Shown: one piece after another, positions 43,981-58,866 of the stretch
Layout: the number at the start of each line of letters is the position of its first letter
Numbering within the stretch: the first letter of the stretch is position 1
Assembly (NCBI RefSeq): GCF_000269865.1
Contig: NZ_AKKV01000026.1
Location: 62,001-126,000 of the forward strand
Direction of reading: 5' to 3'
Origin: Fictibacillus macauensis ZFHKF-1
Lineage (GTDB): Bacteria; Bacillota; Bacilli; Bacillales; Fictibacillaceae
DNA length: 64,000 nt
Position numbers and translations under genes: made by a program
Notes under the pieces: model-generated
Seen by the model: only the letters and a program-made list of their open reading frames with translations
Database searches by the model: none
Told to the model about the DNA's origin: nothing

Positions 43981-44140
43981 TCTTGTGTTCTTGCGTTCAA
44001 GTTTCACAAGCGTACCTGATTCGCGCGCAAACCAAGGCAAATCCCCCTCTGAGCAAGAGCAGAAGATCAAAAAAAGAGTAAATCAAGCGCTAAGCTCGCG
44101 TTGCACCACAAAACAGAGGAAATGATGTGTCCCAAGTTCT
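43981..44140 (-). repeat. Dispersed intergenic element, inverted copy
   Basis: Read on the reverse strand this contains GAACTTGGGACACA, GCGAGCTTAGCGCTTG, CTCTTTTTTTG, CTCTTGCTCAGAG and CGCGCGAATCAGG. The same blocks occur in the same order at 58192-58640. It ends about 30 bp from the 43907-43949 hairpin. Occupies the gap between the MenA-like gene and yrhC. Confidence 0.7.
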
Positions 44141-44229
44141 TTTTTCTAAAGATGTTTTAATTTGCTGAAACGGGGTATAGAATAGCAAACAGAAAAAGAG
44201 AACTCGGGGAATCCCCAAGCTCTCTTATA

Positions 44230-44472
44230 TTATTGTTCATACGCTTGATCTAATTTTTTTCGCAAATGTTGGACATAACTATATAATGCAATCGTAATAG
44301 AGAGACCTATAAATGAAGAAGTACCACAAACAATCACACTATTTGTATCTTTTCCAGCAAAGGGAATAACCGTTCCTAAATACATAAACGCACTTAATGA
44401 TAATAAAATTACCCCAAAGCGTTGGAAATCTTGAATTTTCACTTTTAATTGTTCAATTGCTTTTGTTTCCAT
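44230..44472 (-). CDS. yrhC: YrhC family membrane protein
   Basis: 80 residues: an N-terminal charged helix (KVKIQDFQRFGVILL) and two membrane helices, with AFMYLGTVIPFAGKD matching the YrhC pattern LYVGTVIP. It follows mccB as in B. subtilis, though a terminator lies between. Function unknown. Confidence 0.85.
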   Translation of the reverse strand: METKAIEQLKVKIQDFQRFGVILLSLSAFMYLGTVIPFAGKDTNSVIVCGTSSFIGLSITIALYSYVQHLRKKLDQAYEQ

Positions 44473-44563
44473 GTAACAGAACCCCTTTCTTGTCCATTAT
44501 TTTTCTACCATAACATATTTCAGCTAGGAAGAGTGTGTAAAAATTTTGACAAAATAAAAAGAG

Positions 44564-44592
44564 AACGCCTATTTCCAAGGAAATAGGCGTTT
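44564..44592 (-). terminator. mccB operon terminator
   Basis: Arms AACGCCTATTTCC and GGAAATAGGCGTT with a short loop, directly after the mccB stop. Confidence 0.85.
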
Positions 44593-44598
44593 TCCGTT

Positions 44599-45735
44599 TT
44601 ATGCTTCTAATGCTTGCTTTAAATCCTCAATTAAATCTTCCGCATCTTCAATACCAACAGAGATTCGTACAAGTCCGTCTGTAATGCCGAGCTCTTGACG
44701 ACGATCCGCTGGAATCGATGCGTGTGTCATTTGCGCAGGTAATGAAATTAAGCTTTCAACCGCACCAAGACTTTCAGCGAGCGTAAAGTATTTCACTTGT
44801 TGCAAGACACTTTCTGCTTTCTCTTTGCTTCCAACATCAAAGGAAACCATCCCACCAAAGCCACCAGCTTGTGTTTTTGCTAATTCATGTTGCGGATGAC
44901 TCGCTAACCCTGGGTAATGAATTTTACCAACCGCAGGATGATTGCTTAAAAAGTCTACGATTTTCTTCGTATTCGCTTCATGTGCTTCCATACGAAGGCC
45001 GAGCGTCTTAATGCCGCGAATGAGCAACCAGGAATCTTGTGGTCCTAACACCCCACCAGTAGAGTTTTGCACAAAGTGTAACTCTTCCGCTAACGCTTCT
45101 CCTTGAACGACGACAATACCTGCGACAACATCACTATGTCCACCTAAGTATTTGGTAGCGGAATGAAGAACGATATCTGCACCATGCGTAATTGGTGTTT
45201 GCCAATATGGTGTACTAAACGTATTATCGACAACGAGTAGTAAGTTATGTTCTTTTGCTAGCGCTGCAGACGCTTTTAAGTCTGTCACTTTAAGCAATGG
45301 GTTCGTTGGTGTTTCAATATACAATGCTTTTGTATTTTCACGAATGGCTCCCTTTACTTCCTCTAGGTTTGTTGTATCAACAAACGTCGCTTCAATGCCA
45401 ATACGATTTAATACTTTAGTAATGACACGATATGTGCCTCCATATACATCATCTGTTAAGATGACATGATCACCTGCTGAGAAGAGCATCATCACTGCGG
45501 TAACAGCTGCCATACCAGAACCAAAGGCAAAGCCTCGTGTTCCTTCTTCTAAATCTTTAACAAGCTCTTCTAGCGCAAAACGTGTAGGGTTACCTGTACG
45601 AGAATATTCATATCCTTTATGCACACCTACAGCGTCTTGCTTATACGTACTTACTTGATAAATCGGTACTGATACGGCTCCTGTCGCTTCATCTCCAGGT
45701 ATTCCACCGTGAATTAATTTTGTTTTCCGTTTCAC
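44599..45735 (-). CDS. mccB: Cystathionine gamma-lyase / homocysteine gamma-lyase MccB
   Basis: PLP enzyme that cleaves cystathionine to cysteine. Cys/Met-metabolism signature with the PLP lysine in [14 protein letters not shown], plus [18 protein letters not shown] and [11 protein letters not shown]. 378 residues from GTG 45733-45735 ([11 protein letters not shown]), six bases after GGGAGG. An upstream in-frame extension overlaps mccA and lacks a ribosome site. One base separates it from mccA. Last step of the homocysteine-to-cysteine route. Confidence 0.95.
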
Positions 45736-45736
45736 G

Positions 45737-56718: not shown

Positions 56719-56766
56719 ATGAATTCTCCTTTCATTTTCGAAAGCGATGACAAAGGCTATTTTTAT

Positions 56767-57000
56767 ACCATAAAAAAAACTCCCATCCCCGATTGATCTG
56801 CAATCAGGGACGAGAGTTGAATTCTCGCGGTACCACCCTGGTTATAAAGCACACATGATGCTTTATCACCTTCGTTTAAAGGGTAACGGCCTTCAACCGG
56901 CAGGTATTAGCTGCACTTATAAGAGTAGCTTTCTGTTTAGCCTTCCGAGAAACCTTGCAGCCGTGGGTTTCTTCTCTAGTAACAAAAGGAATTAAACATA
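56767..57000 (-). promoter_or_regulatory. T-box riboswitch of alaS
   Basis: On the reverse strand the T-box AGGGTGGTACCGCG (56826-56839) is followed by a terminator stem ACTCTCGTCCCTGATTG / CAATCGGGGATGGGAGT ending in T8 (to ~56771). The upstream Stem I region has GTGCAGCTAATACC with GCA and GCT as candidate alanine specifier codons (56909-56914). Uncharged tRNA-Ala should bind and favour the antiterminator. Confidence 0.93.
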
Positions 57001-57051
57001 CTTTTCTCTCGTCATCATTTTACATTATTCTTGCGGTTAGTATACTTCCTT

Positions 57052-58134
57052 TTATGGCTCTTTGTCAATCTTTGCCGACCATCTGCTCTTTAACATATGC
57101 AAGGCAACCACTTTTAATACAGAGAAAAGAGGCACTGCAATGATTAATCCTACGACGCCTCCTATTTGACCACCAACTAAAAGTGCAAAGATAATCAGCG
57201 CAGGATGAATATGTAGACTCTTACCGACAATGAATGGACTTAAAATATTTCCTTCAATAAATTGTAGTGCTAACATGATCAGAGCGGTAAATAGCACCAT
57301 TTTCGTAGATATCGTAAACGCTATAAACAACACCGGAATTGCGCCTAAAATCGGTCCGAAATAGGGAATAATGTCTGTTAACGCAATGATAATGCCCAGC
57401 ACGATTGGATACGGCATGCCGACTAACCATAAAGCAATCATCGCACCTATTCCAAGCAGTCCACCTACAATAAGCTGACCCCGAATATAGCCGCCTAACG
57501 TATGATGAATATCAATGAGTAAAGATCTTCCCTCTTTGCGCCAAGCAGGCGGCGTCACATACCAGATAGCTCGTTTCATCACATCAATATCTTTAAGAAA
57601 ATAAAAAACAAGAAAAGGAATGACTATAATTAAAAAGAAATAATCTACGATGCGTTTAAAAAACGTTAGTGAATGAAGTAAGCTTTGTTGTACATATTCC
57701 TCTCCAGAATGGATGTAATCCTCAATACGAATATGAATACTTCGAGGAAAATGAGACGTATGATGATCGATAAAAGCTAACCCATCTTCATACGAGTGAA
57801 CAATCAACGGTAAGCTTTCCATCAGTTCGCGAAGCTGCACAATTAGTTGCGGAATGCCCTTGTATAATCCAAAAGCAAGACCGCCAAAAAACAGCAGATA
57901 AATACATAGAATAGCAGGTGTGCGTGGCATACCATGATGATGGAGCCACTCGACGAGCGGATGCAGCAAATAGGCAAGAAATAGCGCTAGCAAAAACGGG
58001 ATTCCAACCGACCGCAGTACGTTAAGTAGACCACTTCCGTAAGGAGCCAGCAATAACAGTAACCAGCTGCATAAAAATAGGAGTAATACGATGGACAACC
58101 ATTGCATCCATTGGATATAACGCTCCTTCTGCAT
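57052..58134 (-). CDS. yrrI: AI-2E family transporter (YrrI)
   Basis: Eight-helix membrane protein of 360 residues. Family blocks: GIPFLLALFLAYLLHPLVEWL, YPIVLGIIIALTDIIPYFGP and NILSPFIVGKSLHIHPALI. Despite the name, substrates vary; some members are ion antiporters. It lies upstream of alaS on the same strand, as in B. subtilis. The dispersed element starts ~60 bp upstream. Confidence 0.9.
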   Translation of the reverse strand: MQKERYIQWMQWLSIVLLLFLCSWLLLLLAPYGSGLLNVLRSVGIPFLLALFLAYLLHPLVEWLHHHGMPRTPAILCIYLLFFGGLAFGLYKGIPQLIVQLRELMESLPLIVHSYEDGLAFIDHHTSHFPRSIHIRIEDYIHSGEEYVQQSLLHSLTFFKRIVDYFFLIIVIPFLVFYFLKDIDVMKRAIWYVTPPAWRKEGRSLLIDIHHTLGGYIRGQLIVGGLLGIGAMIALWLVGMPYPIVLGIIIALTDIIPYFGPILGAIPVLFIAFTISTKMVLFTALIMLALQFIEGNILSPFIVGKSLHIHPALIIFALLVGGQIGGVVGLIIAVPLFSVLKVVALHMLKSRWSAKIDKEP

Positions 58135-58191
58135 CCAACTTCACCTCCATCCTTAGTGTAGCCAAGACGATAAGAATCCATGTAACAAAAA

Positions 58192-58640
58192 GAAGGACTT
58201 GGGACACAGGTTTTTGGGCGCACTTGCGAGCTCGGCGCTTGTTTTGCTCTCTTTTCGGACCCTTGCTCATGCTCTAAAGAGAGGATTGTCTTGTTTACCC
58301 GCAAACTAGGTGCCTCGACGCTTGACTTCTCCTTTTTGCGATGATTGCATGTCTTGCACGCTATTTCTGCTCATTTTGAACACATTTGCGAGCTCAGCGC
58401 TTGTTTTGCTCTCTTTTGGACCCTTGCTCATGCTCTAAAGAGAGGATTTGTCTTGTCTGCGCGCGAATCAAGTGTCTCTGCGCGCGAACCAAGGGCCTCT
58501 GCGCGCGAACGGAGTGCCTCTGCGCGCGAACCAAGGGCCTCTGCGCGCGAACGAAGCATCTCTGCGCGCGAACGGAGCGTCTCTGTGCGCGAACCAAGGG
58601 CCTCTGCGCGCGAACGAAGCGCCTCTTGCGCGCAATCCAC
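58192..58640 (+). repeat. Dispersed intergenic element, tandemly duplicated copy
   Basis: Two partial copies in tandem. Copy 1 (58192-58340) starts GAAGGACTTGGGACACAGG. Both copies contain GCGAGCTCxGCGCTTGTTTT, GCTCTCTTTT.GGACCCTTG, CTCATGCTCTAAAGAGAGG and GTCTTGT, over about 80 bp of near identity (58226-58297 and 58387-58457). Copy 2 ends in the 21-bp array. It occupies the yrrI-yrzQ gap and has no ribosome-site-supported gene. Confidence 0.8.
58456..58640. repeat. 21-bp tandem repeat array
   Basis: Eight complete 21-bp units (starts 58456, 58477, 58498, 58519, 58540, 58561, 58582, 58603) plus a degenerate ninth. Each has the core CTGCGCGCGAA followed by a variable CAAGGGC/GGAGTGC/GAAGCxT half. 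Units 2 and 4 are identical and unit 7 differs by one base. The unit length is a multiple of three and free of stops, so several frames on both strands stay open; this is a by-product and not evidence of coding. Confidence 0.95.
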
Positions 58641-58821
58641 TTTTTTCGAAATCATTGACATGTTTAGTAATAATCATGCGATTTCTAAAAAGTCCTTCTA
58701 CTCTCTCTAACATGCTTTAGCGTTAGATCCATCACAGGTACGAGCAAAAAAAACGTGGCGTTGCGGTCATATCAGAACCTTGAAGGCCAGACAAGCTAAA
58801 GTGAAAATAACAAGTGACATA

Positions 58822-58866
58822 AAAAAATAGCTTCAGCGTCAAAAAGCGATGCTGAAGCTATTTTTT
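58822..58866. terminator. yrzQ terminator, twin of the 43907-43949 hairpin
   Basis: Arms ATAGCTTCAGC and GCTGAAGCTAT between A7 and T6. Confidence 0.85.

Follow-up and report, generated by a model that had tools for sequence, protein, structure and literature searches.

A dispersed intergenic repeat family in Fictibacillus macauensis: probable IS1182-type elements with a terminator-like hairpin and a 21-bp array

Three intergenic regions in a 64,000-bp stretch of the draft genome of Fictibacillus macauensis ZFHKF-1 (contig NZ_AKKV01000026.1, positions 62,001 to 126,000; hereafter the window) share ordered blocks of sequence, and they raise the question of what kind of element could occupy such places. 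A preliminary description made from the window alone suggested remnants of a mobile element, a repeated structured RNA or a chromosome-organizing sequence. The three loci are members of a dispersed repeat family. As judged from sequence comparison, the family probably consists of non-autonomous, IS1182-type miniature inverted-repeat transposable elements (MITEs) that replace host transcription terminators and carry a portable terminator of their own.

Family size and architecture

Further copies, whose absence would have refuted the preliminary description, proved to be abundant. The unit CTGCGCGCGAA occurs 505 times in the genome and an exact hairpin pattern is found at 51 sites (95 matches before merging of the two strands), with 0 matches for the reversed control of the unit and 0 for the control of the hairpin. 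A BLAST search with element 1 gave at least 88 matches, which is a lower bound on the copy number because only the best 40 of 97 candidates were scored, as in every genome searched. Profile searches of stretches around known copies yielded 59 copies with a recognizable 3′ part, 44 in a first set and 15 in a later held-out set. These 59 are only the copies whose 3′ part was recognized; seven array stretches without one (L098, L099 and L100 inside contigs; L107, L251, L252 and L253 at contig ends) are excluded from all context counts below. Arrays stand at or near contig ends in L007, L106, L107, L240, L251, L252 and L253, where long arrays probably break the assembly. No plasmid or phage source was found with one 591-bp query for each, and a contig scan for two perfect units gave 37 stretches, among which the sole Bacillus match, the only one read, lies within a coding repeat.

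Within the window the family is represented by the following features.

43889-44142 (about), minus strand: element 1, short, with one array unit; between menA and a minus-strand gene
44118-44142, minus strand: element 1, 5′ end AAAGAACTTGGGACACATCATTTCC
44020-44029, minus strand: element 1, sole TGCGCGCGAA unit
43907-43950, minus strand: element 1, terminator-like hairpin adjoining the 3′ end of menA (fold z -8.0)
52673-52978 (about), plus strand: element 2, diverged, with 5′ start and hairpin and no array
52935-52978, plus strand: element 2, hairpin; a different native terminator lies at the same place in six congeners
58189-58905 (about), plus strand: element 3, between two minus-strand genes
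58225-58292, plus strand: element 3, inner block, copy 1 (GCGAGCT..GCGCTTGTTTTGCTCT..GGACCCTTGCTCATGCTCT..GTCTTGT)
58387-58456, plus strand: element 3, inner block, copy 2
58458-58625, plus strand: element 3, array of eight 21-bp units TGCGCGCGAAN11 (at most one core mismatch)
58821-58866, plus strand: element 3, terminator-like hairpin
58875-58905, plus strand: element 3, 3′ end, diverged from GGCTGTTTATGTCCCAGCCTCTTT; an IS1182-type terminal repeat that reads inward on the minus strand

The ordered blocks are present where the preliminary description placed them, and its account of the loci as inverted (element 1, on the minus strand), diverged (element 2, which lacks the array) and partly duplicated (element 3, with its inner block at 58225 and again at 58387) agrees with our reading. 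It had put the hairpins just beyond the 3′ side of the element; they are in fact inside it. Whether the shared blocks exceed chance depends on the block: GCGCTTGTTTTGCTC, with up to three mismatches, has 12 matches in the window against a mean of 3.06 and a maximum of 8 in shuffles, whereas GGACTTGGGACAC alone shows no excess there (10 matches, mean 8.0). Elements 1 and 3 have in common the 5′ end (A)AAAGRACTTGGGACAC, the inner block, CGCGCGAA units and the hairpin ATGGCTTC...GAAGCCAT; no 3′ end motif was seen in element 2. Across the family, the order of parts is a 5′ end (AAAGGACTTGGGACACAATACTTCCTCTGTTT), a variable middle, the array, a tract such as ATACGCAAGACAATCTAAAATCAAACGAACGAGCGACAT, the hairpin and the 3′ end (GGCTGTTTATGTCCCAGCCTCTTT). 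Both ends were recognized in 46 of 57 copies, which span 189-1226 bp (median about 520) and contain no transposase gene.

The neighbor of element 1 is a plus-strand gene (42992-43888) that we take from its protein sequence to be menA. Element 2 lies between two minus-strand genes, presumably a DUF1292-type gene and mltG, and element 3 between two others that we likewise take to be a YrzQ-like small gene and an AI-2E-type gene (57052-58134). Elsewhere in the window (56803-57024, minus strand) is an ordinary T-box leader upstream of alaS, which scores 94.9 bits (gathering score 93).

Position, hairpin and ends

The placement of the copies relative to genes is nearly uniform. In 43 of the 44 copies of the first set, the gene that borders the hairpin is oriented into it; in the second set this applies to 13 of 15 by script and to 15 of 15 after two corrections by eye. 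Over both sets, the hairpin faces the 3′ end of the neighboring gene in 58 of 59 copies (binomial p about 1e-16), three of which were corrected by eye: the profile assigned element 2 of the window to the wrong strand, the script missed a small CxxC-type gene at L238, and the array at L249 shows that the element is on the opposite strand. The sole exception is L073, where a broken-looking minus-strand open reading frame (ORF) ends about 84 bp away. Neighboring genes were called as the longest ORFs by a script, the element being masked, and were not taken from annotation; genes shorter than 60 aa are missed. The stop codon given by the script lies within 20 bp of the element end in 36 of 44 copies. 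On the other side, 24 rows (the mis-stranded element 2 included) have a convergent gene, whose stop in 17 of them is no more than 24 bp from the element start, and 17 rows have the start of a same-direction gene at -15 to 248 bp, 16 of them at 38-248. When the flanking genes run in the same direction, the hairpin stands beside the stop of the upstream gene in 22 of 23 cases (both sets, corrected; p 2.9e-6).

Orthologous sites in six congeners indicate what these positions hold when the element is absent. The comparison covers two loci, those of elements 2 and 3. The gap between the DUF1292-type gene and mltG contains a native terminator (GCAGCTAAAG...CTTTAGCTGC) in each of the six congeners; F. 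macauensis has element 2 there, alongside an mltG leader that resembles theirs. Similarly, the gap between the YrzQ-like and AI-2E-type genes holds a terminator about 10 nt past the stop codon in all six (four have GTCCATGCT...AGCATGGAC, and G001 and G002 close variants of it) and element 3 in F. macauensis.

The covariation check proposed in the preliminary description revealed compensatory changes in the hairpin stem. The 58 aligned copies (L249 is left out) contain 26 distinct arm pairs, in which pairing is kept through two-sided changes: pair 8 occurs as C-G, G-C, T-A and A-T, and further two-sided changes are found at pairs 2, 3, 7 and 10. Pairs 10 and 13 are often open, being paired in 17 and 15 of the 26, and the count as a whole is biased towards pairing since the arm register with the most pairs was used for each copy. 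Both of the hairpins that were folded are more stable than their shuffles (z -8.0 and -9.7), whereas none of five array folds is (z -1.57, -1.66, -0.16, 0.41 and -1.35). With its stable stem, its T run and its position downstream of a stop codon, the hairpin has the attributes by which intrinsic terminators are recognized. The hairpin is a part of the element, and it is strong, covarying and terminator-like.

These results also bear on the suggestion of a repeated structured RNA, which holds for the predicted terminator hairpin and was rejected for the array on the basis of the five folds. A host-encoded structured RNA or 3′-untranslated-region regulator would account for the covarying stem and could draw on the 23 of 44 copies (one row corrected) in which transcription of a convergent gene would run across the element. 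We nevertheless consider this explanation quite improbable, as the terminator stem alone is structured, no copy was seen at either orthologous locus in the congeners, and the sole Rfam match in the window at the gathering score is the T-box leader.

The ends of the element point to its kinship. The inverted 3′-end consensus reads AAAAGAGGCTGGGACATAAACAGCC, and 19 nt of it (AAAAGAGGCTGGGACATAA) are identical to the end of an IS1182-family insertion sequence (IS) in another Bacillales genome, G169, so that the earlier statement that no known insertion sequence explains the three regions has to be corrected for the 3′ end. This IS is 1.8 kb long and present in three copies, two of which were read and one of which begins AAAAGAGGCTGGGACATAACTAGCC; its transposase, tested in one copy, matches NF033551 (E 2e-130) and DDE_Tnp_1_6 (2.4e-29). 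At L288 in the same genome, a terminator-like hairpin lies inside each IS1182-family end (z -6.4 and -9.2), and the IS follows closely behind a TAA that resembles the stop codon of a gene. The 13-mer AGAGGCTGGGACA is found in 85 of 150 genomes of the order (reversed control in 3), with several inverted pairs 108-318 bp apart among the matches listed. A check for target duplications, also proposed earlier, found none above chance for k=2-8 in 36 copies with both ends. For 10 of 18 AGAGGCTGGGACA ends, drawn from 16 loci, an ORF directed towards the end stops at most 80 bp before it, and six of seven folds (six ends and one whole short element) are more stable than shuffles (z -2.96 to -9.15; the seventh, 0.54). 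Together, the folds and the ORF placement suggest the idea, from few cases, that IS1182-type elements of this end group generally bring their own terminator.

Of the three explanations in the preliminary description, mobile-element remnants are thus the best supported, by the dispersed copies, the defined ends, the IS1182-type 3′ end and the absence of the element at two orthologous loci in six congeners. Several observations weigh against the IS1182-type, terminator-replacing reading. The 5′ end only partly matches the 3′ end: the inverted match of the two end consensuses, at the best of nine offsets (offset 1), covers 18 of 35 positions, including TGGGACA, and is imperfect. The exact 13-mer AGAGGCTGGGACA occurs only 8 times in the genome. 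Any active partner transposase is hypothetical: with all 4 candidates scored, the draft genome gave 0 matches to PF13751 (DDE_Tnp_1_6; PF05598 and PF01609 were not searched), which lowers the claim of current activity and not that of origin. The nearly fixed orientation requires an added directional insertion or selection, given that TnSha1, the transposon of IS1272, inserts both ways. Finally, the congeners are distant (53-57% identity at MltG), so their "empty sites" represent ancestral states and not recent insertions.

The 21-bp array in F. macauensis and other Bacillales

The number of array units, counted in 57 copies (L249 and element 2 of the window are left out), is 0-1 in 11, 2-5 in 13, 6-10 in 19 and more than 10 in 14, and the array is therefore not required for dispersal. 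Gaps of up to 130 bp between GCGCGAA cores measure exactly 21 bp in 212 of 232 cases (the window and the first set of F. macauensis stretches), and spacers two units apart are more alike than neighbors (0.656 vs 0.396), indicating a 42-bp higher-order unit. At L098, L099 and L100, TGCGCGCGAA arrays occur without the 3′ part of the element and, by eye, a different terminator-like stem comes next. Beyond that stem is an apparent minus-strand gene.

Similar arrays recur in the order. Three exact CGCGAA cores at 21-bp spacing are present in 32 of 397 genomes (F. macauensis included) and 21 of 135 genera, with 320 matches in F. macauensis and 235 in the other 31 genomes (summed by eye); the locus was read in 15 of these 31. 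A reversed control pattern (AAGCGC at 21 bp) gave 53 matches in 15 of the 397 genomes (counted by eye). G362 accounts for 17 of its matches and G253 for 7, which may belong to a different type of array or to coding repeats. From five g65 species, 25 arrays were read, comprising 128 units in chains picked by core match; they have the core ATTCCGCGAAA, conserved over 10-12 bp, and nearly random positions 13-19. They are intergenic by the ORF script, in mixed contexts, with a minus-strand gene downstream in 15 of 25. Between orthologous arrays of these two other genera, g65 and f21, identity is 91.7% in cores, 65.4% in spacers and 72.5% in flanks for g65, and 98.4, 82.9 and 86.8%, respectively, for f21, in alignments that anchor on the cores. 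The spacing is 20 bp in 8 of 18 f21 gaps, in five orthologous loci, and in 5 of 17 gaps in G020. A 20-bp unit present in four f21 species is missing from another, a gain or loss of a whole unit.

Two further cases were noted. In G020, which belongs to another genus of the same family, TGCGCGAA arrays with 20-21-bp spacing lie between genes (L110-L120 except L111), several of them beside terminator-like stems and most of the eight loci read having a different flank that ends CGTGTAACAGAATAAAAGAACACGTAC. L194 (G302) has 21-bp repeats with identical units, CGCGAAATTCACGAGTAAAGG, on two contigs, perhaps a younger amplification.

Arrays and IS1182-type ends are separable, as AGAGGCTGGGACA has 0 matches in G116 and G145, the two of the five g65 species searched, and the arrays of L098-L100 lack the 3′ part of the element. 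It would seem that the MITE took up an array belonging to a broader class. We tentatively suggest that many Bacillales may have a previously undescribed class of intergenic, putatively protein-bound CGCGAA arrays, spaced at exactly two helical turns, and that in F. macauensis a terminator-replacing MITE captured one of these and distributed it to the ends of dozens of genes. The array may be the new part of this system; our literature searches found nothing in print on the 21-bp array, and none of the 22 papers containing one of four core strings appeared relevant from its title. The third suggestion of the preliminary description, a chromosome-organizing sequence, may apply to the 21-bp arrays, given that they recur in other Bacillales and that their cores vary less than their spacers.

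A rival explanation is that the array is the functional core, a set of protein-binding sites two helical turns apart that serve nucleoid organization, act as a roadblock or insulate transcription units, and that the mobile ends merely spread it. Its recurrence in 21 genera, the better preservation of cores than of spacers and flanks, the conserved 10-12-bp core with little information at positions 13-19, the gain and loss of whole units at both spacings and the arrays of L098-L100 beside another stem all argue in this direction. Yet 11 of 57 copies have at most one unit, and the distribution is patchy: among seven genomes of the genus, the 11-mer is found only in F. macauensis and in G001, with 2 matches there and also 2 for the control. 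The anchoring of the alignments, the matches of the reversed control, the reading of a locus in 15 genomes out of 31 and the putative nature of the binding protein also count against it, and we regard it as unlikely.

Other readings of the 21-bp unit fare worse. Because 21 is a multiple of 3 and the element 3 array is open in frame, the units could encode a seven-residue protein repeat, but the 20-bp spacings in f21 and G020 and the missing 20-bp unit would shift the frame; these spacings rule out a coding heptapeptide repeat, which we find hardly credible. The ORF itself (58345-58710, plus strand, 121 aa, with SAREPRA-type seven-residue repeats) is probably spurious. A CRISPR array would have cas genes in its vicinity and unique spacers about as long as its repeats (about 23-50 bp); the 10-bp core, the 11-bp spacers and the local repetition of spacers do not fit this identity, cas genes not having been searched. 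It is also very improbable that the units are DNA uptake signals, as their cores sit in tight arrays and are not scattered, and we know of no sequence-specific DNA uptake in Bacillales. A short core in many copies near terminators would fit such signals, which in other bacteria are often located in terminators (PMC2267715).

Proposed origin, related elements and significance

On the interpretation that best explains these results, the element came to lie at host transcription terminators through the action in trans of an IS1182-family transposase. Insertion would have removed the host stem-loop and left no target duplication, as suggested by the IS1272 precedent and by two loci compared with six congeners. 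Because the element has its own terminator-like hairpin a short way in from its 3′ end, transcription of the upstream gene would still terminate and the cost of insertion would be low. Selection would then keep the stem, and the observed compensatory changes are what such selection on termination would leave. Local tandem amplification, frequently of 42-bp double units, would have enlarged the array TGCGCGCGAAN11 in most copies; its repeat pattern is observed and the process inferred, as are transposition, termination and protein binding. That the array recurs in other Bacillales and stands next to native terminators of F. macauensis suggests that it has a role of its own, most likely to bind a protein at intervals of two helical turns.

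Published IS1182-family elements provide the precedent. IS1272 and its transposon TnSha1 are reported to insert into hairpins, including terminators confirmed by RNA-seq, delete the stem-loop sequence and make no duplication (PMC4923244, PMC5678879); TnSha1 inserts in both orientations (PMC4923244), and IS1182 elements are over-represented between convergent genes (PMC9208149). The F. macauensis element resembles them in its position at terminators, the loss of the native stem-loop, the lack of a target duplication and its end AAAAGAGGCTGGGACATAA, the last shared with the IS1182-family element of G169. It differs in having no transposase gene within its 189-1226 bp, a nearly fixed orientation and an internal 21-bp array, and in that no DDE_Tnp_1_6 transposase was found in its genome. 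With the bacterial MITEs bcr1, RUP, NEMIS and EFAR (named in PMC3733652), it shares a short, non-coding, dispersed and intergenic nature and probably, in imperfect form, terminal inverted repeats; unlike them, it would replace terminators and carry a portable one, has an expandable phased array and shows no target duplication. The REP/BIME palindromes treated in the same source are also intergenic and mostly 3′ of genes, whereas our element is much longer and has defined ends and a direct-repeat array. The variation in unit number between copies and the 42-bp pattern recall a minisatellite or variable number tandem repeat, but a similar 21-bp-spaced core occurs in other genera with other spacers, and cores outlast spacers between species.

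If our interpretation is correct, the family, with its dozens of copies, would clearly illustrate how mobile elements can displace host terminators while supplying a substitute. This would account for their settling at low cost inside conserved gene runs such as the alaS region. Such elements may also break assemblies and yield spurious seven-residue-repeat proteins in databases. The recurrent phased array of Bacillales, with a core kept between species, means that a putative binding protein could be sought directly. Were both the terminator replacement and the capture of a protein-bound array true, one mobile element would rewire a chromosome in two respects, in where transcription stops and in its map of binding sites.

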